NCBI GenBank assembly: GCA_007376195.1
Contig: VMFT01000001.1
Coordinates: 1-54,487, forward strand
DNA from: Parcubacteria group bacterium Gr01-1014_29
GTDB lineage: Bacteria > Patescibacteriota > Minisyncoccia > Ryanbacterales > 2-02-FULL-48-12
Length of the DNA: 54,487 bases
Reading direction: 5' to 3'
In this document: positions 5,145-47,322 of the stretch, in pieces
Layout of the letters: every line of letters begins with the position of its first letter
How positions within the stretch are numbered: the stretch's first letter is position 1
Notes under the pieces: model-generated
The model's database searches: none
Told to the model about the DNA's origin: nothing
What the model saw: only the letters and a program-made list of their open reading frames with translations
Made by a program: the position numbers and the translations under genes

Positions 5145-6563
5145 ATGAATCGCACATACACTACAGACATACCAAAACACGAAAACCAACAAGTAACATT
5201 GATGGGCTGGGTTGATGCGCGCCGCGACCACGGCAAGTTGCTTTTTATTGATCTTCGAGACCGTACCGGCTTGGCACAAGTCGTCTTTTTTGCAGGCCAA
5301 AAAGAATTGTACCAACAAGCAGACACACTGCGACCCGAATGGGTAATAAAAATTACCGGCACCGTGCAAAAACGCCCGGAAGCAATGAAAAACCCCAATC
5401 TTGCGACAGGGGAGTGGGAGCTCGGCGCGTCAAGCCTCACCATTTTTAATAAATCAGAAACACCCCCGTTTGATCTTACGGGAGACGGATACGACATTGG
5501 AGAAGAGACGCGCATGAAGTACCGCTACCTTGATTTACGCAGAGGCCGCCTGCAAAAAAATATGCGCTTGCGACACAAGATAGCCATGTTTATACGCGAA
5601 TATCTTACCGTCCGCGATTTCGTAGAAATTACCACACCTATTCTCTCAAAAACCACACCAGAAGGTGCGCGTGATTTTTTGGTGCCATCCCGTCTGCATA
5701 AAGGTAGTGTATATGCGTTGCCGCAAAGCCCCCAACAATATAAACAACTGCTTATGATTGCTGGATTTGAGCGTTATTTTCAATTTCCTCACTGTTTCCG
5801 TGATGAAGACTCGCGGGCTGATCGCGCATTTGGAGAATTTACGCAGCTTGATATAGAAATGAGTTTTGTGGAGCAAGAGGATATACTTGGGCTTACCGAG
5901 GCGCTGTTTACTGAGCTTGTAGAAACGCTGTTTCCTCATAAACGCATCAAGGAAAAGCCATGGCCGCGCCTAAGCCATAAAGAAGCAACGCAAACATATG
6001 GCACTGACAAACCAGACTTACGAGATAATAAAAACAACCCGGATGAACTTGCATTTGCTTGGATTGTTGATTTCCCGCTTTTTACGGAACAATCAGAAAA
6101 AGATTTCTTTCATGGGTCGGGAAACGCAAAATTCGCGCCGTCACATCATATGTTTACTGCCCCGCATCCCGATGACACAGCACTTCTTGATACCAACCCC
6201 CAAAAGGTGCGCGGGCTCCAGCATGATATGGTCCTTAATGGCTTTGAAGTCGGTGGCGGCAGCATACGAATTCACGATCCAGTCGTGCAGGAAAAAGTAT
6301 TTAGCCTCATTGGGTTTTCAGAAGAACAAAAAAAACAGTTCCACCACATGCTTACCGCCTTTACCTACGGCGTGCCGCCCCACGGAGGCATTGCGCCTGG
6401 GTTTGATCGTTTTTTGTATGTGCTCCTAGGCGAGCCGAACCTTCGCGAGGTTATGGCATTTCCTAAAACAGGAGACGGCCGCGACCTCATGATGGAGGCG
6501 CCTAGCTCGGCAACAGAAGAACAATTAAACGAGTTAGGAATACAAATTAAAAAACATGTATGA
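5145..6563 (+). CDS. aspS: Aspartyl-tRNA synthetase lacking the GAD insertion
   Basis: A class II synthetase charging tRNA-Asp (possibly also tRNA-Asn). It has an N-terminal OB-fold anticodon-binding domain (VTLMGWVDARRDHG), motif 2 around CFRDEDSRADRAFGEFTQLD, the bacterial AspRS signature QSPQQYKQLLM, and motif 3 at GIAPGFDRFLYVLLG. It is 472 residues long, against about 590 for typical bacterial enzymes. The difference is the GAD domain normally inserted between motifs 2 and 3: GTDKPDLRD (from about 286) runs almost directly into LAFAWIVDFPLF. Its stop overlaps the scpA start by 4 bases (ATGA). Confidence 0.95.
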   Translation: MNRTYTTDIPKHENQQVTLMGWVDARRDHGKLLFIDLRDRTGLAQVVFFAGQKELYQQADTLRPEWVIKITGTVQKRPEAMKNPNLATGEWELGASSLTIFNKSETPPFDLTGDGYDIGEETRMKYRYLDLRRGRLQKNMRLRHKIAMFIREYLTVRDFVEITTPILSKTTPEGARDFLVPSRLHKGSVYALPQSPQQYKQLLMIAGFERYFQFPHCFRDEDSRADRAFGEFTQLDIEMSFVEQEDILGLTEALFTELVETLFPHKRIKEKPWPRLSHKEATQTYGTDKPDLRDNKNNPDELAFAWIVDFPLFTEQSEKDFFHGSGNAKFAPSHHMFTAPHPDDTALLDTNPQKVRGLQHDMVLNGFEVGGGSIRIHDPVVQEKVFSLIGFSEEQKKQFHHMLTAFTYGVPPHGGIAPGFDRFLYVLLGEPNLREVMAFPKTGDGRDLMMEAPSSATEEQLNELGIQIKKHV

Positions 6564-7294
6564 CTCCTATCACCATTCGAACACCCACTTTTGAAGGCCC
6601 GCTTGAGCTCCTTCTTGATCTCATCGAAAAACAGAAACTCTCCATAAATCATGTATCACTTGCGGCTATTGCGGATACGTATGTGGCAGAAGTAAAATCG
6701 CGCGCAACGTATGCTCCCCGAGAAGTTGCGCAGTTTCTTGTCGTCGCCTCCACCCTCATGCTCATCAAATCGCGCTCACTCCTTCCAAACCTTGCTGTAT
6801 CGGACGAAGAGGAAGCAAATATACATGATCTTGAAGATCGCCTTGAAAAACTCCGCCGTATCCGCGAGCTTTCGCGCCATATCGCCGAGATCGCATCTTC
6901 CAGCAAGCGCATGTACGCGTCGAGCGCGCCCGCTCTGCCCGCTATTTTCTACCCGCCCGAGGGTATAACGTCTAACATTCTTCACAACGCCATGAAAACT
7001 ATAGTGCAGACACTTCTCTCTTTTGTAGAAAAATCTGCCACATTGCCGGAAAAAACAATTCTTCATGTCGTCTCTCTGGAAGAAAGGATTACCGAGCTCA
7101 TGCAGCGAGTGGAACAATCGCTCGCAAACTCCTTTCGGTCATTTGTTGGGTCAAAAAGAGAAAAATTAGAAATTATCATCAGCTTCCTCGCGCTTCTAGA
7201 ACTTGTAAAACAAGGGCATCTTCTGGTAGAACAGCAAGAACGGTTTGGTGATATTGCAATGCGCCGCACTTCTTTCCAAAACTCTGTTCAGTAA
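6560..7294 (+). CDS. scpA: Segregation and condensation protein A
   Basis: A 244-residue kleisin that bridges the heads of SMC in the bacterial condensin complex. The N-terminal signature is clear: TPTFEGPLELLLDLIEKQKL, then a helical segment with FLVVASTLMLIKSRSLLP. The C-terminal winged helix ends in FLALLELVKQGHLLVEQ. It starts within the aspS stop codon (ATGA), so the two are translationally coupled. scpB follows after a 138-base gap containing a large hairpin, whose left arm includes the scpA stop codon. Confidence 0.93.
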   Translation: MTPITIRTPTFEGPLELLLDLIEKQKLSINHVSLAAIADTYVAEVKSRATYAPREVAQFLVVASTLMLIKSRSLLPNLAVSDEEEANIHDLEDRLEKLRRIRELSRHIAEIASSSKRMYASSAPALPAIFYPPEGITSNILHNAMKTIVQTLLSFVEKSATLPEKTILHVVSLEERITELMQRVEQSLANSFRSFVGSKREKLEIIISFLALLELVKQGHLLVEQQERFGDIAMRRTSFQNSVQ

Positions 7295-7380
7295 GGAAAT
7301 ACAAAAGTTTTTTCGAAAAGTCTGGCCGAGCGAAGCGAGGAGAACCGAGGACTTTTTGAAAAGCTCTTTTGTATTTCCTT
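7293..7380. repeat. 88-bp inverted repeat between scpA and scpB
   Basis: The outer arms are perfect: AAGGAAATACAAAAG at 7293-7307 and its reverse complement ending at 7380. Inner arms (TTTTTCGAAAAGTC and GACTTTTTGAAAAG) extend the stem. The loop holds GCCGAGCGAAGCGAGGAG; a related CCGAGTGAAGCGAGGGG occurs at 39061. It may act as a terminator or mRNA-stability hairpin, or be a small mobile repeat. Confidence 0.8.
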
Positions 7381-7398
7381 GTCCGAGGTAAGATGGGG

Positions 7399-7425
7399 TT
7401 GAAGTGGTTACAGTTATGCTATACT
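7399..7425 (+). promoter_or_regulatory. scpB promoter, predicted leaderless
   Basis: Extended -10 TGCTATACT (hexamer 7420-7425) lies 7 bases before the scpB ATG at 7433. TTGAAG at 7399-7404 may act as a -35, at a short 15-base spacing. Confidence 0.55.
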
Positions 7426-7432
7426 GACTTAT

Positions 7433-7987
7433 ATGGATTCTCATGACAATCTAGCGGCAGTCATTGAGGCTCTTTTGTTTGTCGCAGGTGAGCCAATACC
7501 CATCGACAAACTTGCGGAGTTAAGCAGCTCAAGCGCTGCCGAAGTACAAAGAGCTGTGCAAAAGCTGCAAGAGGCGGCCTCCATGCGCGGTGGTATTCGT
7601 GTGTTGGAGCATGACCATACGATTTCGCTGGTTACCGCGCCACATCTTGCGCCGTATGTGGAAAAACTTATTAAAGAAGAAATTTTGGGCGACCTTTCAA
7701 AAGCGTCGCTCGAAACACTGACTGTCATTGCCTACCACCATCCCCTATCACGTCCAGAAATAGACTATATCCGTGGCGTTAATTCATCATTTACGCTTCG
7801 TAATTTAATGGCGCGGGGTCTCGTAGAACGCATGGAAGCCCGCCATGGACGAAGCCACACATACCAGCCGACTGTTGAATTCATGAAATATCTTGGACTT
7901 TCATCATTCAGCGATTTGCCTGAATATAATGTCATACGGCGAGATATCGCAAAAGGAATTGAAAAAGTATTGGAAAACGAAGCATAA
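7433..7987 (+). CDS. scpB: Segregation and condensation protein B
   Basis: A 184-residue partner of ScpA and SMC, made of two winged-helix domains. The family signatures are plain: AAVIEALLFVAGEPIPIDKLAEL at the N terminus (broken here for length: EALLFVAGEPIP), then SLETLTVIAYHHPLSRPEID and IRGVNSSFTLRNLMARGLVE. The ATG at 7433 lies 7 bases after a TATACT -10 box, so it probably has its own leaderless mRNA despite following scpA. Confidence 0.93.
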   Translation: MDSHDNLAAVIEALLFVAGEPIPIDKLAELSSSSAAEVQRAVQKLQEAASMRGGIRVLEHDHTISLVTAPHLAPYVEKLIKEEILGDLSKASLETLTVIAYHHPLSRPEIDYIRGVNSSFTLRNLMARGLVERMEARHGRSHTYQPTVEFMKYLGLSSFSDLPEYNVIRRDIAKGIEKVLENEA

Positions 7988-7994
7988 TAATGCT

Positions 7995-8978
7995 ATGGCA
8001 TTCACCCAGAAAAACATCCTTGTAACCTGTGTGCTGTTGTTGGGAAGCATGATGCTTTTTATTCCCGTCTCGCCGCATCTTTTTCCATCACAACAACCGC
8101 CGCTCTACGCAACACTTCTTGAGTCTCTTAGACCTCTGGCAGAGATATCATCCGGCCAAGAGTCACTGCCATCCCCGCTCGAAGATCCTGAGCTTGTCGA
8201 AGGACTACCCGATCTTGTCGCCTCTGCCGCGCTTGCTTACAATCCGGTCACAAAACATGTCTCATTTCAAAAAAATGCCGATGCTGTGTTCGGCATTGCG
8301 AGCATAACAAAAATTATGACAGCCCTTGTTGCGCTCGAACATGTTGGAAAAGATGATATAGTTCGCGTGAGTACGGATGCAATAGGCACGGAGGGAGCAG
8401 AAGGCGATCTTATGGTAGAGGAACATTTTACGCTTCAAGATCTCATCGCTCTTATGATGACGGGATCCAGCAACGATGCGGCAGCCGCCCTGGCGGAACA
8501 TATCGGCAGTTTGTACGGCGCGGCATCCTTTAAAGAAAGTCAGGATTTTTTTACCGGCATGATGAATGAAAAAGCGCAGGTACTCGGCATGCACCATACT
8601 CGCTATCAAAATCCGACCGGCCTTGATAGAGACGAAGAGGCAGGTATTTTAAGCAACAGCTCAACCGCCCGCGATCTTGCGATTCTTATCGAATATACGC
8701 TGCAATACTATCCCGCAATCTGGGAGGCCAACACACAAGCACTCTCCCTGACTTCACAGGAGGGATTTGTCCACCATGTAGCCACAACACACAACCTTCT
8801 TGAATCAATGCCAGGAATTATAAGCGGAAAGACCGGGTTTACCGATACCGCCGGAGGCGCCCTCATTACGATTGCTGACGTTCCGCTTGGTGAAAAACAC
8901 AGTATTATTATTCTCGGATCCACCTTGCCTGATCGCTTTAGCGATACGGAACGTCTGGTGGAATGGTTGCGCAAATGA
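7995..8978 (+). CDS. D-alanyl-D-alanine carboxypeptidase (S11, PBP5-like)
   Basis: A 327-residue serine peptidase that trims the terminal D-Ala from peptidoglycan stem peptides. It has an N-terminal membrane helix (residues 8-24) and the three penicillin-binding motifs: S103-x2-K106 (SITK), S158-x-N160 (SSN) and K279-T-G (GKTG). The ATG at 7995 was chosen because the longer frame overlaps scpB by almost 100 bases. The linker DPELVEGL (about 64-71) is encoded by CCTGAGCTTGTCGAAGG, a short repeat motif found dispersed in many bacterial genomes. The stop overlaps the mraY start (ATGA), so it is coupled to the cell-wall operon that follows. Confidence 0.9.
   Translation: MAFTQKNILVTCVLLLGSMMLFIPVSPHLFPSQQPPLYATLLESLRPLAEISSGQESLPSPLEDPELVEGLPDLVASAALAYNPVTKHVSFQKNADAVFGIASITKIMTALVALEHVGKDDIVRVSTDAIGTEGAEGDLMVEEHFTLQDLIALMMTGSSNDAAAALAEHIGSLYGAASFKESQDFFTGMMNEKAQVLGMHHTRYQNPTGLDRDEEAGILSNSSTARDLAILIEYTLQYYPAIWEANTQALSLTSQEGFVHHVATTHNLLESMPGIISGKTGFTDTAGGALITIADVPLGEKHSIIILGSTLPDRFSDTERLVEWLRK
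8187..8203 (+). repeat. Short REP-like motif within the carboxypeptidase gene
   Basis: CCTGAGCTTGTCGAAGG matches a short dispersed repeat seen in many bacterial genomes (recalled, not searched). Here it is in frame in the low-complexity linker between the membrane anchor and the catalytic domain. Confidence 0.5.
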
Positions 8979-10042
8979 CTATCGACGAACTTACAATTAG
9001 CGTTTTGAAAGTCCTGGGAGCCGCGATGGCGGCTTTCGTTTGTGTCATGCTCATGACTCCGCTTGCCACGCGGCTCATGCATACCTATAAACTCTGGAAA
9101 GTGCAAAGCGGCAAAACTGCACTTGCCGGCGGGAATGCGCATATTTTTAACGCAATGCATGACGAGACAAGAACACCGCGCGTTGGTGGCATTCTTGTGT
9201 GGGGAAGCGTTCTATGTGTCCTGGCGCTATTCTGGGGACTCGATAAATTTACGGACCATTCGTTACTCGAGAAATTCAATTTCTTAAGCCGGTCCCAGAC
9301 GTGGCTTCTTGCTTTTACCCTGGCCGCAGCGTCACTTTTGGGACTTGCGGATGATATCCTGCAGATAGGGACATCACGCACACAAGCGTTCAAAGGCGGC
9401 ATCGATCTTGTAACACGGCTTGTTGCCGTCTCACTCATCGCGCTTGTCGGCGCACTTTGGTTCTACTACAAACTCGACTGGAGAACAGTGTATCTTCCCG
9501 GTGTGGGTGTTTTATTTCTTGGTGTCTGGTATATACCATTTTTTATTTTGACCATGCTCGCCACATTTAGCGGTAGCGTAATAGATGGTATTGACGGTCT
9601 TGCAGGAGGAGTTCTGGCATCCGCGTTCGCGGCATACGCCGGCATCGCTTTTTTTCAAAACCAGATTGATGTGGCCGCGTTCGCCGCGGCAATTGTCGGG
9701 GCCCTCCTCGCATTTTTATGGTTTAACATACCTCCGGCCCAGTTTTGGATGGGGGAGACAGGCATTATCGGGCTTACCACAACACTTACCGTCATAGCTT
9801 TTTTTACTGATTCGGTTCTTATTTTGCCAATAATCGCGTTTCCGCTGGTGCTCGCATCGGCATCGGATATCATCCAAATTATTGCACGGAGGTTTTTTGG
9901 TACAAAAGTTTTCCGCGTGGCTCCCATTCAGCATCACTTTGAAGCAATCGGCTGGCCATCTTACAAAGTGACCATGCGGTTTTGGGTCATAAGCATTGCC
10001 TGTGCTATTATAGGGATGGCATTGGCGTTAGTGGGACGGTAA
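8975..10042 (+). CDS. mraY: Phospho-N-acetylmuramoyl-pentapeptide transferase
   Basis: A 355-residue polytopic enzyme that moves phospho-MurNAc-pentapeptide from UDP to undecaprenyl phosphate, forming lipid I. The family signatures are LADDILQIG (the DD pair), DGIDGLAGG, FLWFNIPPAQFWMGETG and PIQHHFEAIGWPSYKVTMRF. The usual NxxNxxDGxDGL loop reads SGSVIDGIDGL, so its asparagines are replaced; MGDTG reads MGETG. The start was placed at the ATG overlapping the previous stop (ATGA); an ATG 12 bases upstream is also in frame. It leads a deacylase-ftsW-murG run, the right half of a dcw cluster. Confidence 0.9.
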   Translation: MTIDELTISVLKVLGAAMAAFVCVMLMTPLATRLMHTYKLWKVQSGKTALAGGNAHIFNAMHDETRTPRVGGILVWGSVLCVLALFWGLDKFTDHSLLEKFNFLSRSQTWLLAFTLAAASLLGLADDILQIGTSRTQAFKGGIDLVTRLVAVSLIALVGALWFYYKLDWRTVYLPGVGVLFLGVWYIPFFILTMLATFSGSVIDGIDGLAGGVLASAFAAYAGIAFFQNQIDVAAFAAAIVGALLAFLWFNIPPAQFWMGETGIIGLTTTLTVIAFFTDSVLILPIIAFPLVLASASDIIQIIARRFFGTKVFRVAPIQHHFEAIGWPSYKVTMRFWVISIACAIIGMALALVGR

Positions 10043-10103
10043 CACATAGCATTGAACACAAAGCATGAATCATGGGATATTTTTGTTCCATGTTCTATGT
10101 TCC

Positions 10104-11696
10104 ATGAAATACGATATCATCATAAAAAATGGAACCATAATCGACGGCACCCAACAAGCGCCGTATACCAGCACGATCGCTGTAAAAAATAAGACTATAG
10201 CTCAAATCAACTCCCAAATAGCGGCGGACGCAAAAACGGTTATTGACGCAACAGGGCTTTATGTATGCCCGGGATTTATTGATATCACAAACCATTCCGA
10301 TACGCACTGGACCCTTTTTGACCATCCCTCACAAGAAAGCATGCTCCGGCAGGGAATTACCACCATCATTGGGGGATCGTGCGGCTCGTCCCTCGCACCC
10401 CTGTTGCACGGATCAATCAGCGCGGAGTCCATACAAAAATGGGTAGACACATCGCAAATAAACGTGAACTGGCTTCGTATGAGTGAGTTTCTTGACGAAG
10501 TAGGTCGCCATAAGCTCGGTGTTCATTTTGGCTCGCTGGTAGGCCACGGCACGCTCCGGAGAGACTGTATGAAAGATGCAGTATCACGCCCTGCGAACGC
10601 GATAGAAATCGAACAGATGGCGTTTTTATTGGACGGAGCGCTGAAGGAAGGCGCGTTTGGCCTTTCACTGGGACTTATGTTCAGTCACGGTCGTTCGGCA
10701 ACGGACGAAGAATTGCTGGAGCTTGGAAAAGTAGTAGCGGCTCACGATGGCATCCTTACCATACATCTGCGCGACGAAGGAAAAGATATTCTGCCGGCCG
10801 TAACGGAAACATTGCGCATGGCGCGCGAATCTGGCGCGCGAACGCACATAGTGCATTTCAAGGCAATTGGACGCGAATCCTGGGAACACCTGTCCCGCGC
10901 GCTGCCACTTATCCGCAAAGGTAGGGAAGAGGGCATGGATCTTACTGTCAGCACATTTCCCTACAAACGTACCGGCTCACTGCTGTATACACTCCTACCG
11001 TCCGCAAGTCGCAACGGCGGTAAGGATATGATCTTGAAACGCATCACAGATCAAAAACAGCGGCGACTCGTGGTGGAAAACCTCCGTAGTATGACATTGC
11101 ACTTCGAAAAACTTATCATCGCATCAGCAAAAAATACCCCGCAGGTTGCGGGCAAGTCCATTCAGGAACTCGCGCAAAGCCAGGAAATTGCGCCGGAGGA
11201 GGCGCTTCTCGAAGTGCTTCGTGTCAACGATCTTGCTGTGACAATATTCAGTGAAACCATCCATGAAAAAAATATCGCGGCAATTTATCTTGAACCGTAT
11301 TCTTGTTTTGCCACAGACGGTATCGGATTGGAAAAACCGGATCTGTCCCAAAATAACCACAATCTTGTACATCCACGATCTTTCGGCGCAACCGCGAAAT
11401 TTCTTGAAGAATTTGTGCGCAACCAATCTCTGTTTTCATGGGAACATGCAGTCTCAAAAATGACAAAAATCCCCGCCGACCTTATGCGCCTTTCTGATCG
11501 CGGCGTACTAAAAAAAGGCGCGCGGGCAGACATAACACTTATCAACCCAGAATCTATTCATGATGAGGCAACCTATACGGACCCGTTTCAGTATCCGGTC
11601 GGCATCCCGTGGGTGCTGGTGGAAGGCAGTATTGCAGTAGAAAACGGCTCACTCACGAGCAAGCGCGCTGGCACCATTCTTCGCGCAATGGCATGA
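10104..11696 (+). CDS. N-acyl-D-amino-acid deacylase-like amidohydrolase in the murD position
   Basis: A 530-residue metal-dependent amidohydrolase of the D-aminoacylase family. It has the N-terminal strand barrel (KNGTIIDGT), PGFIDITNHSD where the family has PGFIDxHxHDD, and the Cys motif GGSCGSS (C93). It also has IHLRDEG (H221), IVHFKA (H251), ATDGIGL (D405) and the C-terminal HPRSFG. In characterised D-aminoacylase the tight zinc site uses the equivalents of C93, H221 and H251, all present. The first metal-site His is Thr62 here, so the second, weaker site is altered. The gene lies between mraY and ftsW, where murD usually sits, and overlaps ftsW by ATGA. A role in releasing or recycling D-amino acids from wall peptides is inferred. 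The ATG at 10104 follows a word-like inverted repeat. Confidence 0.82.
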   Translation: MKYDIIIKNGTIIDGTQQAPYTSTIAVKNKTIAQINSQIAADAKTVIDATGLYVCPGFIDITNHSDTHWTLFDHPSQESMLRQGITTIIGGSCGSSLAPLLHGSISAESIQKWVDTSQINVNWLRMSEFLDEVGRHKLGVHFGSLVGHGTLRRDCMKDAVSRPANAIEIEQMAFLLDGALKEGAFGLSLGLMFSHGRSATDEELLELGKVVAAHDGILTIHLRDEGKDILPAVTETLRMARESGARTHIVHFKAIGRESWEHLSRALPLIRKGREEGMDLTVSTFPYKRTGSLLYTLLPSASRNGGKDMILKRITDQKQRRLVVENLRSMTLHFEKLIIASAKNTPQVAGKSIQELAQSQEIAPEEALLEVLRVNDLAVTIFSETIHEKNIAAIYLEPYSCFATDGIGLEKPDLSQNNHNLVHPRSFGATAKFLEEFVRNQSLFSWEHAVSKMTKIPADLMRLSDRGVLKKGARADITLINPESIHDEATYTDPFQYPVGIPWVLVEGSIAVENGSLTSKRAGTILRAMA

Positions 11697-12796
11697 GTAT
11701 TTCCCGCGCGCAGCGTCCCGATTATATCCTTCTTGTCGCCGCAGGTATTCTTGTGATTGTCGGTATTTTTATGATTGCTTCCGTATCACCCAGCATTAGC
11801 AACGATAGATTTGGTGAGCCATATTACTTTCTTAAAAATCAGCTGGTAGGTGTTGTTGTCGGATGCGTTGCCCTTCTTATCTGCTGGCGCATCAAATATA
11901 CATTCTGGAAAAAAACAGCTCCATTCCTGCTTATTCTAAGCCTATTCTTGATGGCGCTCGTGTTTGTGCCAGGCATCGGCCTTGAGCTCAAAGGTGCCGC
12001 GCGCTGGATTCATTTTGATTCTGTTACCGTACAACCCGCGGAAATAACAAAGCTTGTTTTCATTATATATCTTGCCGCGTGGCTTGAGACAAAACGTAAG
12101 GAAGTAGGAAATTTTACCACCGGATTTCTTCCATTTCTCGTCATGCTTGGCATCATATCCATATTTTTTATCCTACAGCCGGATATTGGCACGTTGGGAG
12201 TTCTTGTGCTTGCCTCAACACTGCTCTTTTTTTTAGGAGGTGGTAGAATTGCGCAACTGGGAGTATTGTTGGTAGTGGGAGTTGCTGTTCTCGTACTGCT
12301 TGTGATGACGCAACCCTATCGCCTTGACCGCGTAACCGTTTTCTTGAAGCCGCAAACTGACTTACAAGGAATCGGCTATCAACTGCATCAGAGCTTGCTT
12401 GCAATAGGGTCGGGTGGGTTCTGGGGCAAGGGATTTGGCATGTCGCGCCAAAAATTCAGCTATCTTCCGGAACCGGTCGGAGATTCGATCTTTGCGGTAT
12501 TTGGAGAAGAATTCGGTTTCGTGGGAAGCATCGGTCTTGTCGGACTGTTTTTGGTGTTTATGTGGCGCGGCATGCGCATCGCGCGGCATGCGCCGGATTT
12601 ATTCGGCACCTATCTCGCTACCGGCATTATACTGTTAATAACCCTTCAAGCATTTACCAATATCGCCGCGGTCAGCGGACTTTTGCCGCTCACCGGCCTC
12701 CCATTATCTTTCATTAGTTTCGGCTCATCGGCTCTTGTTATAAATTTTGCCGAGGTTGGAATCCTTATGAATATTTCTAAATATATAACGCAATGA
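11693..12796 (+). CDS. ftsW: Peptidoglycan glycosyltransferase FtsW (SEDS family)
   Basis: A 367-residue polytopic SEDS protein that polymerises glycan strands at the division site with a partner class B PBP, probably the FtsI encoded at 36148-37788. Recognisable segments are KGAARWIHFDSVTVQPAEI with the conserved KxxxxW region, LQPDIGTLGVLVLASTLLFF, and the C-terminal GLLPLTGLPLSFISFGSSAL. Its position before murG argues for FtsW rather than RodA. The start overlaps the deacylase stop (ATGA) and its own stop overlaps the murG start. Confidence 0.92.
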   Translation: MSISRAQRPDYILLVAAGILVIVGIFMIASVSPSISNDRFGEPYYFLKNQLVGVVVGCVALLICWRIKYTFWKKTAPFLLILSLFLMALVFVPGIGLELKGAARWIHFDSVTVQPAEITKLVFIIYLAAWLETKRKEVGNFTTGFLPFLVMLGIISIFFILQPDIGTLGVLVLASTLLFFLGGGRIAQLGVLLVVGVAVLVLLVMTQPYRLDRVTVFLKPQTDLQGIGYQLHQSLLAIGSGGFWGKGFGMSRQKFSYLPEPVGDSIFAVFGEEFGFVGSIGLVGLFLVFMWRGMRIARHAPDLFGTYLATGIILLITLQAFTNIAAVSGLLPLTGLPLSFISFGSSALVINFAEVGILMNISKYITQ

Positions 12797-13923
12797 AAAT
12801 CGTTCTCACCGGAGGCGGGTCCGGCGGGCATTTTACCCCCATCATTGCGATAGCGCAGTCCTTGCGACGTATCGCCGATGAAGAAAAAATCATTACGCTT
12901 GATCTGATATATATCGCCGATCAACCGTTCAATGAAGAACAACTTCGCGATGAAGATATCCGTTTCATTCATCTTACATCCGGCAAATGGCGCGGCTATT
13001 TCTCACTGAAAAACATAACGGATATTTTTAAGACGTTCTGGGCGCTCCTCCAGGCGTTATTGATTCTTTACAAAGAATTTCCTGACGTAGTGTTCGGCAA
13101 AGGAGGATCGATAAGTTTTCCCGTATTGTTTGCCGCCCGTTTCTACGGCATACCGATTATCATCCACGAATCAGACAGCACACCGGGGCGCGTAAATGCA
13201 TGGGCCGCAAAGTTCGCGGAGCGCATCGCGGTGGCATTTCCGGAAACAGTACAATCATTCCCCGCGGAAAAAACGGCTTATACCGGCAATCCCGTGCGAA
13301 GCAGAATTCTCGGTGGAAACGAAGAAGAAGCGCTCGCGTTATTTTCTCTTGAGCCGCATATCCCGACCATTCTTGTATTGGGCGGATCGCAAGGCGCACA
13401 GCCATTAAATGATATCTTCTTGCAAATTGCCCTGCGGATTACCGAAACGCATCAAATCATACATCAAACGGGAAAAGATAATTATAACGATGTGCTGAAA
13501 CAAGCCTCCGTTATTCTTGAAAAGTCGCCTCACCGCGGCCGGTATCGTATTTTCTCATTCCTTAATGAAGATCGACTCCGCAATGCCGCGCGGATTTCAC
13601 GTCTTGTCATATCGCGCGCGGGAGCAAACACTATTTTTGAGATCGCCGCATGGGGCATTCCAAGCATCCTCGTACCACTGCCACACGCCGCGAGCAACCA
13701 CCAACGGCATAATGCCTATATTTACGCGCGCGCCGGAGCATGCGAAGTCATTGAGGAATCTAACCTCACGCCGACGCTTCTTTTGAATGAAATAAACAAA
13801 CTACTGTCTGATGAAACTATTCAACATACCATGAAGGCGGCGGCACAGAAGTTCAGCCGTATTGACGCGGCGGAAAAAATAGCTCGCGAAATCATAAAAA
13901 TCGGATTGCATGAAGGCAGCTGA
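12793..13923 (+). CDS. murG: Lipid II-forming GlcNAc transferase
   Basis: A 376-residue GT28 enzyme adding GlcNAc to lipid I on the cytoplasmic face. The N terminus has the glycine-rich GGGSGGHFTPIIAIAQSL loop. The middle has VFGKGGSISFPVLFAARFYG and HESDSTPGRVN, and the C-terminal domain has LGGSQGAQPLND and ISRAGANTIFEIAAWGIPSI. It is coupled to ftsW by ATGA. A TATACT box just inside the 3' gap (13930) serves the next gene. Confidence 0.95.
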   Translation: MKIVLTGGGSGGHFTPIIAIAQSLRRIADEEKIITLDLIYIADQPFNEEQLRDEDIRFIHLTSGKWRGYFSLKNITDIFKTFWALLQALLILYKEFPDVVFGKGGSISFPVLFAARFYGIPIIIHESDSTPGRVNAWAAKFAERIAVAFPETVQSFPAEKTAYTGNPVRSRILGGNEEEALALFSLEPHIPTILVLGGSQGAQPLNDIFLQIALRITETHQIIHQTGKDNYNDVLKQASVILEKSPHRGRYRIFSFLNEDRLRNAARISRLVISRAGANTIFEIAAWGIPSILVPLPHAASNHQRHNAYIYARAGACEVIEESNLTPTLLLNEINKLLSDETIQHTMKAAAQKFSRIDAAEKIAREIIKIGLHEGS

Positions 13924-13943: not shown

Positions 13944-15365
13944 ATGATTTCAAAAAAGCTGGCAGGCGTCCGCACGCGCATAGCTCCCAGCCCGACCGGC
14001 TGGCTGCACATCGGTACGGCGCGCGCAGCGCTTTTTAACTATTTGTTTGCCCGGCGTCATGGCGGAAGTTTCGTGGTGCGGATTGAAGATACTGACCTTG
14101 AACGCTCAGACAAAAAATTTGAGGCAGATATTTTAGAAGGACTCTCCTGGCTGGGAATTGAATGGGACGAAGGACCAATCGTTGATACTAGAAATTACAA
14201 AGGCGACTACGGACCGTACCGGCAAACAGAACGTCTTGACTCTTACGAGCACTATCTCAATAAGCTTTTAGAGCAGGGGAGAGTGTTTTATTGCGCGCAT
14301 ACCGCTCAAGAACTCGAAATAGAACATCGAGCTCAAATGGAAACAAAACAAGCGCTGCGACATATCTGCGCGCACCGCGACGCGAGCAATACGGAAGGAA
14401 TAATTCGATTCAAAAACACCGCGTCCGGATGCATTACCTTTACCGACTGCATCCGCGGCGCTATTTCATTCAACACAGAACTCCTGGGTGATTTTTCTCT
14501 TGCAAAAAATATACGCGCGCCCTTGTATAATTTTGCCGTAGTGATTGATGACAAGGAAATGGCTATTACGCATGTCCTTCGCGGCGAGGATCATATTCCC
14601 AATACCCCCAAACAAATACTCATACAGGACGCGCTCGCATTTGAGCGGCCGCTCTACGCCCACCTGCCGCTTATTCTTGGTCCTGACCGATCGAAACTTT
14701 CAAAACGCCATGGCGAGACATCACTCAACGCGTACCGCCACGAAGGGTATCTCGGGCAAGCTCTTGTTAATTTTATAGCGCTTCTTGGGTGGAATCCGGA
14801 TGATGAGCGCGAAATCTTTTCGTTAGATGAGCTTGAGAAAGAATTCTCTCTTGAGAAAGTGCAAAAATCCGGCGCCGTCTTTAATAAAGAGAAGCTCCAA
14901 TGGCTGAATGGGGAATATATCAGACGCATGGATAGAGAGACACTCGCGGCAAACCTGTATCCGTTTTTACAAGAATCATTTGGAAATATACCTCAAGACA
15001 TACTGCATAGGGTAGCAAAAATAGAACAACCACGTCTAAAAACCTTTGCGGATGTGCAGGCATTACCTTTTTTATTTAAAGACCCATCTTATGAGAAAGA
15101 ACTTCTTTTGTGGAAGGGAATTCAAGAACCAGTGGAGGCAGCGACACATTTGAGAGCAATTGAAAAAATATTGTGCGACATAAAGGATTTTGAAAAAACC
15201 CTTATGCCATATGCAGAACAACACGGTAAGGGAAACGTCCTCTGGCCGCTCCGCGTGGCGTTGAGTGGACAGGCGGCGTCTCCCGGACCGTTTGAGATTA
15301 TGTATGTTATCGGAAAAGAAGCAACGTTACGGCGCGTACGCAATGCGATTGCATTACTCAAATAA
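13944..15365 (+). CDS. gltX: Glutamyl-tRNA synthetase
   Basis: A 473-residue class I synthetase of normal bacterial length. The HIGH motif reads HIGT in RIAPSPTGWLHIGTARAAL, and the KMSKS motif reads KLSKR in DRSKLSKRHGETSL. The catalytic domain keeps VVRIEDTDLERS and HVLRGEDHIPNTPKQI. In organisms lacking GlnRS this enzyme also charges tRNA-Gln for GatCAB; the window cannot show which applies. It probably has its own promoter, and its 3' end overlaps the next gene by 23 bases. Confidence 0.95.
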   Translation: MISKKLAGVRTRIAPSPTGWLHIGTARAALFNYLFARRHGGSFVVRIEDTDLERSDKKFEADILEGLSWLGIEWDEGPIVDTRNYKGDYGPYRQTERLDSYEHYLNKLLEQGRVFYCAHTAQELEIEHRAQMETKQALRHICAHRDASNTEGIIRFKNTASGCITFTDCIRGAISFNTELLGDFSLAKNIRAPLYNFAVVIDDKEMAITHVLRGEDHIPNTPKQILIQDALAFERPLYAHLPLILGPDRSKLSKRHGETSLNAYRHEGYLGQALVNFIALLGWNPDDEREIFSLDELEKEFSLEKVQKSGAVFNKEKLQWLNGEYIRRMDRETLAANLYPFLQESFGNIPQDILHRVAKIEQPRLKTFADVQALPFLFKDPSYEKELLLWKGIQEPVEAATHLRAIEKILCDIKDFEKTLMPYAEQHGKGNVLWPLRVALSGQAASPGPFEIMYVIGKEATLRRVRNAIALLK

Positions 15366-16596
15366 ATATACATTGTTGGTACTACTTATGCTGTTTCCAT
15401 TCAGCGTGTTTTCAGCAACAGAATCCGAGCTTAGAACACGCATTGAAGAGCGCAACAAAGAAATACAAAAATTGGAAGAAGAAATAGCGCACTACCAGAC
15501 AACCCTCTCCCGCACTACGGAAAAATCAAATACGCTCCGGCAGGAAGTATCCCGGATCGAGACGCAAATAAAAAAACTTTCCGCTGACATCCGTCTTACC
15601 CAAAACCGCATTACCGCGACAGGGCTTCACATTGAAGAACTTGATGGGAAAATTATCGGCACCGAAACCCGCATGAAAACACAGCATGTCACGCTGGCAG
15701 AAACCATCCGACGAATTTATGAAAAAGACACGGATTCCCTTATAGAACTCCTGCTTCAAAATAAGCAGCTATCCGATTTCTTTGGCAATCTAGAAGATAT
15801 CCAGAGTCTTGAACGCTCTATCCAAGGTAACCTTTCCGAACTGCGAACCTTAAAAACGGCGCTGTTGGAAGAACGCGCGTCTCGTGAAGAGCAAAAAGAA
15901 AAGCTTTCACAGCTTGGGCGGGAACTTGATGATCGGCGCGATATTGAAGAGGGCGCAAAACAAGAAAAGAAAACACTTCTTGCCTCAACTAAAAATGAGG
16001 AAGCGCGCTATCAGCAATTATTGGCAAGCAGGGAAGCGCTGCGTGAAGAAATGCTTGCCGACATTCAACGTATTGAGGATGAACTACGCAAGCTCATTGA
16101 TCCATCTTCACTTCCAAATTCAGCCCGAGGTGTGTTGGCTTGGCCTCTAAAAGGTGCTACGATACTTACTCAAAGTTTCGGTAATACGCCGGACTCAAAA
16201 ATACTCTATAATGGAAAACCCCACAACGGTATTGATCTTGCCGCTCCCGTGGGTACGCCATTATTCACGGCCGAATCTGGCATTGTCCGCGAAACCGGCA
16301 ACACGGATGCGTTTTTAGGATGCCTTTCTTACGGACAGTGGATACTCATTGAACATCCGAATAACCTTGCCACGCTCTATGCGCATCTTTCGCGCATATC
16401 TGTGTCTAAAGGCACTACGGTGGCGCGTGGAGATAACATCGGCTATACTGGCGCTACCGGGTATGCCACGGGGCCCCACCTACACTTTACCGTATATGAC
16501 GCGGCTACCGTCCAATTCCGGGCTTCCACTCTATCTGGCAGCAACTGCAAATATCTGCCGTATGGCGGGTACTTGAATCCACTGGCATACCTATAA
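15343..16596 (+). CDS. EnvC-like murein hydrolase (coiled coil plus M23 peptidase)
   Basis: A 417-residue exported protein. A signal peptide (about residues 8-25, ending SVFSA) is followed by a long coiled coil (about 26-260) and a C-terminal LytM/M23 domain. The zinc ligands are in place: HNGIDLAAP (H-x3-D) and the HLHF motif, with an intermediate YAHLS. The domain is therefore probably catalytic, unlike E. coli EnvC, which only activates amidases. The ATG at 15343 places the signal peptide at the N terminus; the longer frame from 15265 was rejected. It overlaps gltX by 23 bases. It likely cleaves peptidoglycan cross-links during division. Confidence 0.88.
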   Translation: MRLHYSNKYTLLVLLMLFPFSVFSATESELRTRIEERNKEIQKLEEEIAHYQTTLSRTTEKSNTLRQEVSRIETQIKKLSADIRLTQNRITATGLHIEELDGKIIGTETRMKTQHVTLAETIRRIYEKDTDSLIELLLQNKQLSDFFGNLEDIQSLERSIQGNLSELRTLKTALLEERASREEQKEKLSQLGRELDDRRDIEEGAKQEKKTLLASTKNEEARYQQLLASREALREEMLADIQRIEDELRKLIDPSSLPNSARGVLAWPLKGATILTQSFGNTPDSKILYNGKPHNGIDLAAPVGTPLFTAESGIVRETGNTDAFLGCLSYGQWILIEHPNNLATLYAHLSRISVSKGTTVARGDNIGYTGATGYATGPHLHFTVYDAATVQFRASTLSGSNCKYLPYGGYLNPLAYL

Positions 16597-17994: not shown

Positions 17995-19176
17995 ATGCGT
18001 ACATCCTATTCAGCGCTGGAAACATTCCGGCAATGCCCGCAAAAATATAAGTTTCAACAGATAGAAAAAATTAAAACGCCAAAATCAAAGGAGGCGATAT
18101 TTGGCACGCTCGTACATAGCGGGCTGCGCTATCTTTTCTCGCGCGATCCGTTATACCCTTCTCTCGACGAAGTCATAGCGCATTTTGGCGCGTCTTGGTC
18201 ATCGGTGGAAATTGCCGAAATTACCGAAGAAGAAAAAACAGCGTATCTTACGCAAGGCGAATCGCTTCTCCGCCGGTTTTACGCCAAAAACCAACCGTGG
18301 AATTTTAACGTGCTAGACTTGGAATCTCGCTTTGAAATTATCGTGGAGGACCCGAAAACAGGCACCATGCATACCCTTGCGGGTATTATGGATCGTATAG
18401 ACAAACCTGATGACGCGCACTACGAAATAATTGACTATAAGACGAGCCGGAAAATGAAGTCACAAGACGCGCTTGATACCGATTTTCAGCTTTCGCTCTA
18501 TCATCTCGCCCTCATAAAACGCTGGCCCCACATTAACCCAAACGCGCTATCGCTTTCGTTGTATTACGTTAAACACAATGAAAAATTAACCACTACACGT
18601 ACCATCGTCCAGACAGAAGAGACAAAACAGCACGTGCTAGAAACAATTCGTGATATTGAGATACGTACCTTTTCGAATGATTTTCCTCCCCAACCATCTG
18701 CTCTCTGCGACTGGTGCGGGTATAAAGCAATGTGTCCGGCGTGGAAATTTTTATTCCTGAAATCTGAAACACGAAACTTGAAACGTGAGAACATAGAACA
18801 TATCACCAAAGAGTTTTTTGCTTTGAAAAAAAATAACCAAGAAACAACAAAGCGTCTTGCCGAGTTGCAGACAGATATAAAGGCGTATATGGATCAAGAA
18901 GGCATCACGCGTATATTTGGCGAAGGCGGCGTTATTTCAAAAACCGTGCAAGAGCGGTATTCCTATGACTACGAAAAAATACGATCAGCGCTTGAAGCGC
19001 ACAACCGTCTTGATGTCTGGAACGCTCTATTGACCCCGGATGACAAAAAACTAAAAACCATGCTGCCCACACTCCCCTCCCCCTTGAAAGAGCAGGTACT
19101 GGAAGCCCGTTCAATAGCAAAGAAATTTGAAGTGCTGAGCGCAACCATAAAAAAAGCTTCCAACCCCTTCTCTTAG
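17995..19176 (+). CDS. RecB/Cas4-family PD-(D/E)XK nuclease with Fe-S cysteines
   Basis: A 393-residue nuclease of the PDDEXK_1 group. The N terminus SYSALETFRQCPQKYKF carries the first Cys. A nuclease core follows with FGTLVHSGLR, GIMDRID, EIIDYKTS (the D-x-K motif) and QLSLYHLAL. The distal Cys cluster CDWCGYKAMCP supplies three more ligands, as in AddB and Cas4 iron-sulfur nucleases. The C-terminal third is charged and helical. No CRISPR or addA-like helicase gene is nearby, so a solitary DNA-repair role is inferred. The stretch at 18756-18789 (SETRNLKREN) is encoded by a word-like GAAAC repeat that also occurs in rsmH. Confidence 0.85.
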   Translation: MRTSYSALETFRQCPQKYKFQQIEKIKTPKSKEAIFGTLVHSGLRYLFSRDPLYPSLDEVIAHFGASWSSVEIAEITEEEKTAYLTQGESLLRRFYAKNQPWNFNVLDLESRFEIIVEDPKTGTMHTLAGIMDRIDKPDDAHYEIIDYKTSRKMKSQDALDTDFQLSLYHLALIKRWPHINPNALSLSLYYVKHNEKLTTTRTIVQTEETKQHVLETIRDIEIRTFSNDFPPQPSALCDWCGYKAMCPAWKFLFLKSETRNLKRENIEHITKEFFALKKNNQETTKRLAELQTDIKAYMDQEGITRIFGEGGVISKTVQERYSYDYEKIRSALEAHNRLDVWNALLTPDDKKLKTMLPTLPSPLKEQVLEARSIAKKFEVLSATIKKASNPFS

Positions 19177-34769: not shown

Positions 34770-36128
34770 TTATGAATTTCCAAGCCAAAATGGCTCTTGG
34801 CGCACTAACAATTCTTTTTTATGTTCCGGCCTCAACATAATCTCCTCCACCGTCCGTTCCATACGCATAGATTGAGATCCTTTCACCAACACCACATCTC
34901 CCGGGATAATAATATCATCAAGAAATTTTCCAGCTTCCAACGCATTACCAAACTCATGAACCTGCTCGGATGCCAAACCGTGTTCCCGCGCCGCGCGCGC
35001 AATAAATTTAGCTCGCGGGCCTACGGTACAAAGCATGTTTACTATAGGAGCCGCGAGCTCTCCCATAGCCTCATGCGCCTGAATGGTAAACTTGCCGATC
35101 TCAAGCATGTCTCCCAACACCGCAATACGTCTCTTTGCGGGTATATCATGTAACGTATCGAGTGCGGCATGCATAGCGGTGGGAGAAGCATTATACGTAT
35201 CATCCAAAATCAGCGAGCCCTTAATGCCTTCCAAAAGACGCAATCGTCCCGGCAATGGGCGATACAAGGCCGAGAGAGTTGCCGCCGCGTCCAATATATT
35301 GATGCCAAACCAAACACCAACGCCAAGCGCGGCGGCAGCCACATATAGTTGCTGTTTTCCCAGCATCCCCTCCAACCGCAACGGTACTGTAGAACCATTG
35401 TAATCAACCTTGCAACGGATACCGAGCGGCACCTCTCTATCCATCTCGTTACGTACGTTCACTTCGTTCAGTATCTTTGAGCCGGCCACTATCGCATAGT
35501 TTGAAACCTGTACGTCCGATCCCTTTCCAAATCCAAATGTCAATACTTTTCCCCGCGCCTCATTGCGCATATCATATACTACATCATCATCGGCGTTTAA
35601 TAAAACACACCCGTTCTGCGCGGTGCTGCGCGCAAGTTTTCCTTTTTCAAACGCAAGCTCTTTGGGTCCGGAAAAAAATTCCACGTGTACGGGAATCTCG
35701 CCGATTGCTGTTATCACGCTTACTTCCGGCTTTATCAACGAAAGAAATACATCCATATTTCCCGGCCGGTCAACACCTGCTTCCAAAACTAATATATTCG
35801 GATATTTCTTGCGTTCACTGCGTTCAGTATCTTTGACCTGGAACATCACAAAAAAACCCCGCACAATAACGGAGAGCCAGCCGAAAACGGAATTCCATTG
35901 CGTCTCCAAACCCAATACGGTAAGAGGTATGCCAAATTCGCTATTATAGCTTTTTGGGCTTTTTCGAATATCATATTTTGACGCAAGAACGATGGCAACT
36001 GCTTCTTTGGTTGATGTTTTTCCAACACTGCCCGTTATGGCGACGATGCGCGGCTTAAACTTCGCCAGCACTGCCCGCGCCTCCCACGTTAATATGTATA
36101 AAACAATATGCTTTAAAAATAGCTTCAT
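34770..36128 (-). CDS. murF: MurF-like ligase without the N-terminal substrate domain
   Basis: A 452-residue Mur ligase. MurF adds D-Ala-D-Ala to the UDP-MurNAc-tripeptide. The ATP loop GSVGKTSTK is at residues 33-40, whereas normal MurF has it near 110 after a UDP-MurNAc-binding domain; that domain is missing here. The rest fits MurF: LNADDDVVYDM, LDDTYNASPTAMHAALDTL and VLGDMLEIG. A short N-terminal helix replaces the lost domain. The ATG at 36128 follows the ftsI stop by 19 bases. It ends the mraZ-rsmH-ftsL-ftsI-murF unit. Confidence 0.85.
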   Translation of the reverse strand: MKLFLKHIVLYILTWEARAVLAKFKPRIVAITGSVGKTSTKEAVAIVLASKYDIRKSPKSYNSEFGIPLTVLGLETQWNSVFGWLSVIVRGFFVMFQVKDTERSERKKYPNILVLEAGVDRPGNMDVFLSLIKPEVSVITAIGEIPVHVEFFSGPKELAFEKGKLARSTAQNGCVLLNADDDVVYDMRNEARGKVLTFGFGKGSDVQVSNYAIVAGSKILNEVNVRNEMDREVPLGIRCKVDYNGSTVPLRLEGMLGKQQLYVAAAALGVGVWFGINILDAAATLSALYRPLPGRLRLLEGIKGSLILDDTYNASPTAMHAALDTLHDIPAKRRIAVLGDMLEIGKFTIQAHEAMGELAAPIVNMLCTVGPRAKFIARAAREHGLASEQVHEFGNALEAGKFLDDIIIPGDVVLVKGSQSMRMERTVEEIMLRPEHKKELLVRQEPFWLGNS

Positions 36129-36147
36129 TCGTTTAAGTTTTAAGTTA

Positions 36148-37788
36148 CTATCTATCCGGCGGTATTTTATAGTAGGTAATGATAAATTCTGCCAGTTTCC
36201 GGAACGGCTCCGAAAGCGTCTGTGAAGCATATCGCACACCACGCGGCTCTTCAAGGTAGAGCAGTATGAGAAACCGCGGATCAAACGCGGGCGCATACCC
36301 AAAAAATGTATGCAGATACATATCTGAATATCCGCCTGCTGTTTTGTTGGAAATCTGCGCTGTGCCTGTTTTTGCGGCAATGCGATACCGCGGCATGGAA
36401 ACAATTCCTCCGGCTAGGGTTTTATCAACCACATCCGCAAGCATACGCGAGACAATTTCAGTGGTTTCCGTTCGTAAGACTCTTCGGCGTACGGCCGGTA
36501 AAGTTTCCGTACTGACTCCCTTAGTATCTTCAATGCGCTTCACTATATACGGCCTCATGAGTTCCCCGCCGTTCGCGACGGCAGAAAGCGCGGATGCAAG
36601 CCCCAAGGGTGTTACCGCAATGCCCTGCCCGAAAGAAGCTGTCGCGTATTCAACATTGTTGCCTATCTCAAGGTTGCTAAGGTTGCCGGCAACTTCCTGC
36701 CCAAGATCAACACCAGTGCTCTCACCTAAACCAAAGCGTCTCATATAATCATGAAACGCGCGCTTGCCAAGCTGCTGCATAATAAACACGGCGCCCGTAT
36801 TCAGCGACTGATCAAGAATATCATACATGCGCTGCAATCCGCGCCCTTTCCCGTCATAATTGCTTAGAGTTGCGTCCCCTATCTGCACCTGGCCCGCATC
36901 ATAATAGGTTGTTGCCTCTGTGATGGATCGCGCGTCAAGACCGGCAGCCATCGTAAGGGGTTTGACAATAGAACCCATCTCAAAAACTTTTTGCGTAAAC
37001 GGATTGAGAAAAATGTCATAATCCTTCACTTCCTGATACGCGTTCGGATTAAACCCGGGCATACTGTCCATGGCAAGAATAGCGCCTGTTTTCGGCTCAA
37101 GCACTAGTATACCTGCTGATACCGCGTTCCACGTTTCCACTAATTTTGTGCCGAGTTCATGGGCAATGGATTGAATATGAGGATCTATCGTTAAGATAAG
37201 ATCTGACCCATTTTGGGCAAAGCCGGAACGCGCATCGCTTCCGTTTAAGATATCTTCATACTGTTGTTCCAAACCATAACGCCCGCTCCGCCCGATATCG
37301 GAAAACCCAACAAACCCCAACAGGTGGCTTGCCATCGTACCCTGGGGGTAGACACGCTTCTCATCTTTTGAAAGCCAAATTTCAGGCGTAGTGAAATTCG
37401 CTATGTTGGCAGCGGTATCCCGAGAGATGTTTTGCATGAATACTGTATACGTGGTGTCGCGCGCCGAGGCACGCTCCAAAAATGTGTCCTTATCCAGCGG
37501 GAGCAAAGCTACAAATTTTTCGTAAAGAGCGGTAGGATTTTCTATCTGACGCGGATTCCCCTCCAATGTATAAGTACGATGTGTTGTTGCCGCGGGAACC
37601 AAAACACCGTCTTTGTCTTCAAAAAAAATATCCCCGCGGCGCGACTGATCGAGCAATAACGCATTGTGCTGGCGCTCTGCCGTGGCCTGATATTCATCCG
37701 CGTAGGAAACCTGAAGAAAAAAAAGGCGCACTATGACAGTCCCCCCTATCGCAATGAGTACACCTGTCACTACCAGAAGTCGCCTCAT
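36148..37788 (-). CDS. ftsI: Division transpeptidase FtsI (class B PBP)
   Basis: A 546-residue penicillin-binding protein. It has one N-terminal membrane helix (about 5-26), a dimerisation domain with the RRGDIFFEDKDG start typical of class B PBPs, and a transpeptidase domain. The active motifs are S273-IV-K276, S328-L-N330 and K473-T-G. Its place after ftsL and before murF supports FtsI rather than PBP2; a separate PBP2 is encoded at 43097-45019. It should pair with the FtsW encoded at 11693. Confidence 0.93.
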   Translation of the reverse strand: MRRLLVVTGVLIAIGGTVIVRLFFLQVSYADEYQATAERQHNALLLDQSRRGDIFFEDKDGVLVPAATTHRTYTLEGNPRQIENPTALYEKFVALLPLDKDTFLERASARDTTYTVFMQNISRDTAANIANFTTPEIWLSKDEKRVYPQGTMASHLLGFVGFSDIGRSGRYGLEQQYEDILNGSDARSGFAQNGSDLILTIDPHIQSIAHELGTKLVETWNAVSAGILVLEPKTGAILAMDSMPGFNPNAYQEVKDYDIFLNPFTQKVFEMGSIVKPLTMAAGLDARSITEATTYYDAGQVQIGDATLSNYDGKGRGLQRMYDILDQSLNTGAVFIMQQLGKRAFHDYMRRFGLGESTGVDLGQEVAGNLSNLEIGNNVEYATASFGQGIAVTPLGLASALSAVANGGELMRPYIVKRIEDTKGVSTETLPAVRRRVLRTETTEIVSRMLADVVDKTLAGGIVSMPRYRIAAKTGTAQISNKTAGGYSDMYLHTFFGYAPAFDPRFLILLYLEEPRGVRYASQTLSEPFRKLAEFIITYYKIPPDR

Positions 37789-37841
37789 ATACTGTTTTTC
37801 TATCGGGTAATACTAATTTTGTTGTCTTATGGAGTCCGATT

Positions 37842-38159
37842 TCATAGTGTGATGTCTATAGCAACTGAGGAATCCCGCGCCACAAAATAAACGGGACCCG
37901 CAGTTGATAAATTAAGTTCTCGCGCTTTTTGTTCAAGCCAAGAGCCCACCACTAAATGTGCGCGCTCAACTTCCAATGAACGCACCTCTTCTTTTAGCTG
38001 CAAAATGCGCTGTTCGTCCGATTGTATACCGAACGTACGCATTGCAACCCCATTAATGCTATAAATATAGAGTGCGGCAAACACAAGAAAACACAAACTC
38101 AACAATCCTGCAAAAACGGGGATGAGAATTTTAGAAAACTTGTATGAAATTATTGTCAT
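37842..38159 (-). CDS. ftsL: FtsL-like septum protein
   Basis: A 105-residue bitopic protein with one membrane helix (about residues 12-34) and a coiled coil (about 45-70, EQRILQLKEEVRSLEVERAH). The C-terminal segment has ARELNLSTAGPVYFV. Sequence conservation in this family is low; the call rests on size, topology and position between rsmH and ftsI. Its start overlaps the rsmH stop (ATGA). Confidence 0.8.
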   Translation of the reverse strand: MTIISYKFSKILIPVFAGLLSLCFLVFAALYIYSINGVAMRTFGIQSDEQRILQLKEEVRSLEVERAHLVVGSWLEQKARELNLSTAGPVYFVARDSSVAIDITL

Positions 38160-45019: not shown

Positions 45020-45495
45020 ATATGCTTTTTAAAAATTTGCAGACACAACGCGTGCGCAAAAATCATCAAAACTAAAACGATACCAGAAACCATACTATCG
45101 CGTATAAACAGATACATGAGCTCGTCACGGTATCCCATCGCAAAGAAAAAACCACCTTCAACTACCAAAAAAACGCCAAGAAATACTCCTCCCACAATGC
45201 CATGCGCGATCAATTTCTTTTCATCAACGAAACGCATTCCAACACGTGCGCCCACCATGCTAATACCAAAACTTGCCATATATACGCCAAACATCAATGG
45301 TGAAAGGGCGTCTAACATGCCTCCCAGAACAATACCGAGAACGGCCGCGTGCGCCACCGGCAGAAACGTTGAGACATACAACGCGACAGCTGGCAAAAAA
45401 AAGATGCCTGATGAATAAGCAGAGACTACAAATTGCAGAAAGAACGCACCTCCCAACACTCCAAACGCGCCAATTGTTCTAAAAAATAAATTCAT
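45016..45495 (-). CDS. mreD: Rod-shape protein MreD
   Basis: A 159-residue membrane protein with about five hydrophobic helices. The family is poorly conserved; the call rests on size, topology and place between mreC and mrdA. AAVLGIVLGGMLDALSPLMF resembles the typical MreD segment GFxxGLLxDxxs. It overlaps mrdA by 4 bases and follows mreC by 6 bases. Confidence 0.85.
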   Translation of the reverse strand: MNLFFRTIGAFGVLGGAFFLQFVVSAYSSGIFFLPAVALYVSTFLPVAHAAVLGIVLGGMLDALSPLMFGVYMASFGISMVGARVGMRFVDEKKLIAHGIVGGVFLGVFLVVEGGFFFAMGYRDELMYLFIRDSMVSGIVLVLMIFAHALCLQIFKKHI

Positions 45496-45501
45496 GTACC
45501 A

Positions 45502-47302: not shown

Positions 47303-47322
47303 ATCGTGTGAAATTTTCAATT

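Follow-up and report, generated by a model that had tools for sequence, protein, structure and literature searches.

The window, that is the whole 54,487-nucleotide stretch of DNA analyzed here, carries on its plus strand a run of genes comprising aspS, scpA, and scpB (5145..7987), a homologue of the S11 D-Ala-D-Ala carboxypeptidases (7995..8978; start codon inferred), mraY (8963..10042), a gene of 530 codons for a D-aminoacylase-like amidohydrolase (10104..11696; hereafter DAA), ftsW (11693..12796), murG (12793..13923), and gltX with an M23 peptidase gene (13944..16596). The S11 carboxypeptidase gene is a member of the conserved cluster, and the upstream (aspS, scpA, and scpB) and downstream (gltX and M23) parts of the run are likewise conserved in relatives; the names of aspS, scpA, scpB, and the M23 peptidase come from sequence reading. 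The product of mraY, directly upstream of DAA, belongs to Glycos_transf_4 and reaches 126 bits with TIGR00445, under its cut-off of 192, while ftsW and murG pass the cut-offs of TIGR02614 and TIGR01133, respectively. The ORF coordinates agree with the order mraY-DAA-ftsW-murG and with the ATGA overlap of DAA into ftsW that were given in a preliminary description of this DNA; ftsW and murG overlap in turn by 4 bases. Between mraY and DAA, just upstream of the DAA start, lies a weak hairpin of 40 bases (10062..10101, plus strand; z = -2.25) which carries repeated TGTTCYATGTTC, and a third copy of the TGTTCYATGTTC motif is located at 18789-18800 on the minus strand. Two further wall clusters, named by sequence reading, are found on the minus strand of the window; one holds murF, a PBP, and rsmH (mraW) (34770-39022), and the other a PBP2-like gene, an mreC-like gene, and mreB (43097-47320).

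DAA is a member of the amidohydrolase superfamily with a D-aminoacylase-like fold. The protein matches Pfam Amidohydro_3 with 66 bits (cut-off 29.7), and its best relatives in a phmmer search of the PDB (e.g., 9G5M, 1M7J, 3GIP, and PpOngB) are without exception D-aminoacylases, N-acyl-D-Glu deacylase, or OngB, with E-values of about 1e-51 to 1e-59. The best NCBIfam match, NF006560 (PRK09061 amidohydrolase family protein), scores 187 bits, below the curated cut-off of 340. With the AlphaFold2 model of DAA (pLDDT 89.7, pTM 0.89) as the query, the top nine PDB matches in Foldseek were all D-aminoacylase, BbDam, or OngB (TM 0.81-0.84 by query length). The D-aminoacylase-type identity that had been read from the letters alone is thus borne out by sequence, model, and fold search. 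Since no signal peptide is evident at the N-terminus (MKYDIIIKNG), DAA should be cytosolic.

Distribution and gene order in relatives

DAA is present in all four genomes of the window's family and in nine of the ten genomes of the order, the tenth being also without murG. Across the class, a DAA match was obtained in 206 of 384 sampled genomes, a count that may include other amidohydrolases, since some 35 of these hits score weakly, with E higher than about 1e-95, and most of them went uninspected. Matches occur in 202 of the 364 class genomes with murG as against 4 of the 20 without it (Fisher p=0.002; p=0.035 with the count limited to the stronger DAA matches), in tests that ignore relatedness, and DAA is missing in nearly half of the wall-making (murG-bearing) relatives of the class. 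A phylum-wide draw of 240 genomes gave 30 DAA matches, of which 25 lie outside the class and a few are weak or partial. The genomes surveyed are mostly draft assemblies, and their assignment to the CPR rests on the preliminary description and on genome size.

We read the surroundings of DAA in 101 loci, namely the window and 100 loci from other genomes that were chosen for the most part among matches with better scores, with the genes mapped by tblastn and clustering of all ORFs. The gene directly downstream is murD in 52 loci and ftsW in 31 (83/101), the gene directly upstream is mraY in 53 and murI in 7 (60/101), and DAA and the adjacent wall genes often overlap or nearly do so. At least one of mraY, murD, and ftsW lies close by on the same strand in 96 of the 101 loci; four loci have no wall neighbor of this set (L066, L067, L089, and L142), and in a fifth that was counted with them (L083), tblastn does locate murD. 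Most often the order is mraY-DAA-murD-ftsW-murG, and outside the class almost every locus likewise has mraY-DAA-murD-ftsW. The same neighborhood in nearly all of the loci is indicative of a linkage far beyond chance, and by its conserved linkage with mraY, murD, ftsW, and murG, DAA is a component of the dcw cluster. The preliminary description had drawn a tie to wall synthesis from the operon position and had allowed for a one-off insertion; the conservation of this position across the class and beyond supports the tie and does away with the insertion. Beside the DAA homologue of relatives outside the phylum (L009-L011 and L013), we found no wall genes of the reference set.

Relatives that lack DAA show mraY-(murI)-murD-ftsW-murG or the same order minus murD (20 loci, several showing only part of the cluster). 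DAA and murD stand together away from mraY and ftsW in 17 loci, 4 of which have murI. A murI-DAA-murD module, in which murI adjoins DAA/murD, was seen in 12 loci, with murI before DAA (L075, L082, L090, L097, L132, L137-L140, and L145) or after murD (L077 and L146). Over the 35 loci carrying all genes, the distances of DAA track those of ftsW (r=0.83), S11 (0.77), and mraY (0.75) (Mantel p=0.001), about as closely as these three track one another, which indicates that DAA travelled with the cluster. The notion that DAA tracks murD best (r=0.70) was dropped, as ftsW, mraY, and S11 do better on this common set. In the simplest account, DAA entered the cluster at the junction of mraY and murD; afterwards, the window's family and several others lost murD from the cluster, which left DAA in the apparent murD slot. 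Distribution and gene order together indicate that this addition to the division/cell-wall cluster was early in these lineages and that DAA was inherited with the cluster from then on.

Active-site residues and proposed chemistry

Alignments place the tight Zn site of the window's DAA at C93, H221, and H251, the carboxylate site at K253 and R425, and the general base at D405, with T62 replacing the first metal His. The earlier assignments of C93, H221, H251, D405, and T62 therefore hold for this copy, while D405 and T62 are not fixed across the family. In the alignments, C93, H221, and H251 pair with Cys96, His220, and His250 of the Alcaligenes faecalis D-aminoacylase (AfDam), D405 and H64 with its Asp366 and His69, and T62 takes the place of its His67. 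Conservation was counted over 98 aligned DAA-family sequences, in which H423-P424-R425 (R425 98/98), Y287, and D66 are invariant, and H251 (97/98), K253 (95/98), H221 (93/98), and C93 (88/98) are mostly kept. Position 62 is His in only 6 of the 98, and the AfDam-type HxH motif of the alpha metal site is not found in the window (T62). The alpha metal site of AfDam is weak and inhibitory; with the first metal His gone, no more than this site should be lost, so that T62 alone does not predict inactivity. At position 285, that of the carboxylate-site Tyr, the window has Phe and the family has Tyr in 55 and Phe in 35 sequences, a correspondence (Tyr283/Phe285) that hinges on alignment near an indel-rich region.

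Position 405 is more variable, being Asp in 63 sequences (the window's included), Asn in 25, and another residue in 10, so that Asp is missing in 35 of the 98. On a tree built without these active-site columns, the state at this position (Asp or non-Asp) changes 13 times by parsimony, and at least 8 changes are forced by well-supported branches; the changes may include regains and need not all be losses. One clade of 17 holds most of the Asn405 cases (17/25). A Zn ligand is lost in 11 of the 98 sequences, and C93, H221, H251, K253, and D405 are jointly intact in 58, the window's copy among them. A few loci (L047, L157, and others, in relatives G004, G146, G078, G171, and G126) have a single in-frame stop within the DAA match, which may reflect pseudogenes, sequencing errors, or code differences. 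In PpOngB, Lys254 and Arg379 anchor the alpha-carboxylate, as described for D-aminoacylases too, and Asp368, the counterpart of D405, is the general base/acid, D368A having been used as an inactive mutant; the metal, carboxylate, and Asp residues are strictly conserved in the characterized groups (PMC12017989). Set against this strictness, the DAA clade is D-aminoacylase-derived but, as its variation shows, under different constraints.

We propose, with a probability of roughly 0.4, that DAA is a peptidoglycan-dedicated offshoot of the zinc D-aminoacylase/N-acyl-D-glutamate deacylase family which would hydrolyze an acyl-D-amino-acid bond in its intact members. Conservation shows that DAA keeps a pocket that anchors the alpha-carboxylate of a D-amino acid via K253 and R425, and in the intact members, the window's included, one Zn (C93/H221/H251) and Asp405 would carry out the hydrolysis. 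DAA has as neighbors the genes for D-Glu (murD, and murI in the loci of the module) and for lipid I/II. A putative substrate is a small wall-derived or precursor peptide (e.g., L-Ala-D-Glu or peptidyl-D-Ala), and the D-amino acid released would return to the Mur pathway; in short, DAA would bind, and its intact members would probably hydrolyze, a D-amino-acid-containing precursor or muropeptide. The roles offered in the preliminary description, namely release of D-amino acids, recycling, and stem-peptide editing, would all be possible. In part of the family, however, the catalytic Asp has gone several times and some members have lost a Zn ligand, which makes these roles less likely there and means that hydrolysis cannot be the function retained by all.

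Because Asp405 has been lost repeatedly while the ligand anchor and the gene position were kept, the leading rival is a binding protein or pseudoenzyme, whose task would be to bind a ligand, either a D-amino acid or a peptide, or to scaffold or regulate MraY, MurD, or FtsW, with catalysis being dispensable. HPR, Y287, and W123 are invariant also in the members without Asp405 or a Zn ligand, the gene keeps its place, and there is a precedent on the amidohydrolase fold in the inactive pseudo-dihydroorotase that is needed for aspartate transcarbamoylase activity in P. aeruginosa (PMC7053772). Nevertheless, the joint retention of five active-site residues in 58 sequences would be unexpected if catalysis were useless everywhere, and the concentration of D405 loss in one clade also speaks against it. 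The raw counts of D405 loss against murD adjacency (25/59 vs 4/31) reduce to only 3 well-supported independent pairs, and a link between the two is not established. On balance, we consider this reading less likely than the hydrolytic one, although a pseudoenzyme role in some lineages is to be taken seriously.

The Mur pathway and the remaining alternatives

DAA could also be an ordinary scavenging or detoxification D-aminoacylase that acts on free environmental N-acyl-D-amino acids and owes its operon place to historical accident. The known chemistry of the family and the dispensability of DAA among wall-making relatives would accord with this, but it is made unlikely by a position that has outlasted deep divergence (about 40% identity) as well as rearrangements involving murD, and by the co-absence of DAA with murG.

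The genome to which the window belongs comprises 1.08 Mb in 52 contigs and is listed as 100% complete. Its contig C6 carries a full murD (306 bits in a profile search, cut-off 212) within a second wall cluster (L181, C6 5962-11694), which consists of a laccase-domain (YlmD-like) gene, murD, serS, alr, and a gene resembling ftsQ; the names YlmD, serS, and FtsQ were read by eye. Moreover, murI is on C32, murE on C17, and murC on C14, and murF lies within the window at 34770-36404 (TIGR01143 score below cut-off). With murC, murD, murE, and murF all found, the four Mur ligase steps are covered and DAA is not needed as MurD. The claim that DAA occupies the murD slot consequently stands as to position and not as to function, a normal murD lying elsewhere in the genome. 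Among 104 genomes, murD is lacking in 16 of 76 with DAA vs 5 of 28 without it (p=0.79), and among the murG-bearing class genomes murI is found in 42 of 202 with DAA vs 30 of 162 without it (p=0.6). This independence speaks against DAA simply standing in for one or the other gene.

A supply of D-glutamate to MurD by DAA in place of glutamate racemase is suggested by the tight linkage to murD, and in the 12 module loci to murI, by the lack of a clear MurI in most class genomes, and by BbDam, a family member that is an N-acyl-D-Glu deacylase. It is nonetheless quite unlikely, for 132 murG-bearing genomes have neither DAA nor murI, the window's genome has a murI of its own, and DAA persists in genomes without murD over cut-off; replacement of the racemase was rejected on the independence of DAA and murI. 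Some near-complete genomes with DAA show neither murC nor murD, so that D-Glu supply to MurD is not the sole role of DAA. As for another source of D-Glu, a D-amino-acid transaminase gave no match over cut-off in 112 genomes, with weak matches in 28. Glutamate racemase itself is over cut-off in only 64 of the 384 genomes of the class, and any match at all is seen in 87, against 364 with murG.

We give almost no credence to DAA as a replacement of MurD through a new way of adding D-Glu to UDP-MurNAc-L-Ala: the 16 genomes (of 112 sampled) that have DAA and no murD passing cut-off, and whose loci as read show DAA followed by ftsW without murD, would fit it, but the murD on C6, the independence of DAA and murD absence, and the usual order mraY-DAA-murD-ftsW speak against it. 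DAA moreover has no ATP-binding domain, and in several of the murD-less genomes murC is missing as well, whether DAA is present or not.

Only two Mur ligases were found in a set of near-complete relatives with murG and DAA (G012, G026, G052, G057, G063, G077, G084, G089, G099, and G106; loci L185, L189-L192, L195, L196, L198-L200, L207, L208, L210-L212, L215, L218, L221, L223, and L225), and likewise in the DAA-less G014 (L188 and L217). The profiled ligases of these relatives are MurE and MurF, the remainder being assigned by P-loop motif, and neither MurC nor MurD came through the searches. These relatives either build their stem peptide in another way or have a first pair of ligases that goes unrecognized.

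Taking cluster and active site together, we tentatively regard DAA as an undescribed core component of the wall cluster that would bind or control a D-amino-acid-bearing wall precursor as its shared function, some lineages having kept catalysis and others having repeatedly lost it; this reading is possible and should be held with caution. We found no paper describing DAA in the wall cluster in the literature searched, which leaves out most subscription journals. If this reading is true, DAA would either add a new editing or recycling step at the stage of MraY and MurD or take part in precursor synthesis as a pseudoenzyme partner. In these bacteria, which have tiny genomes and are mostly uncultured, wall synthesis is currently inferred from the textbook gene list, and a conserved extra gene with an altered D-amino-acid enzyme site points to a step or a regulator that is missing from that list.

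Comparison with known systems

AfDam (PDB 1M7J) resembles DAA in fold (TM 0.81/0.90), in the Cys-His-His tight Zn site, in the catalytic Asp of the window's copy, and in the Lys and Arg for the alpha-carboxylate. However, the two are 28% identical in the structural alignment, the window has Thr in place of the first metal His of AfDam, a position where His is rare across the DAA clade, the counterpart of the carboxylate-site Tyr283 is Phe in the window, with most of the clade having Tyr or Phe there, the insertion region of DAA is longer and different, and DAA sits in a wall-gene cluster. The N-acyl-D-glutamate deacylase of Bordetella bronchiseptica (BbDam, PDB 3GIP) is similar in fold (TM 0.83/0.92) and in the chemistry residues; its Arg295, which specifies D-Glu through its grip on the gamma-carboxylate, falls in the insertion region where the alignments break off, and any correspondence with a DAA residue hinges, here too, on the indel-rich stretch. 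The GlcNAc1A deacetylase PpOngB (PDB 9KB1/9KB3) shares the fold (TM 0.83/0.92) and the residues of a mononuclear Zn mechanism, but is an enzyme of chitin catabolism whose group, unlike the DAA clade, keeps its metal and carboxylate residues strictly.

The pseudo-dihydroorotase of the P. aeruginosa ATCase is an amidohydrolase-fold chain that is inactive yet required by its biosynthetic partner (PMC7053772); it belongs to another subfamily and offers an analogy only, the window's DAA not being predicted to be inactive. In essence, the cluster matches the classical dcw cluster (mraY-murD-ftsW-murG) in the order of the remaining genes and differs from it by one extra gene between mraY and murD/ftsW and, in the window's family, by a murD that has moved out.
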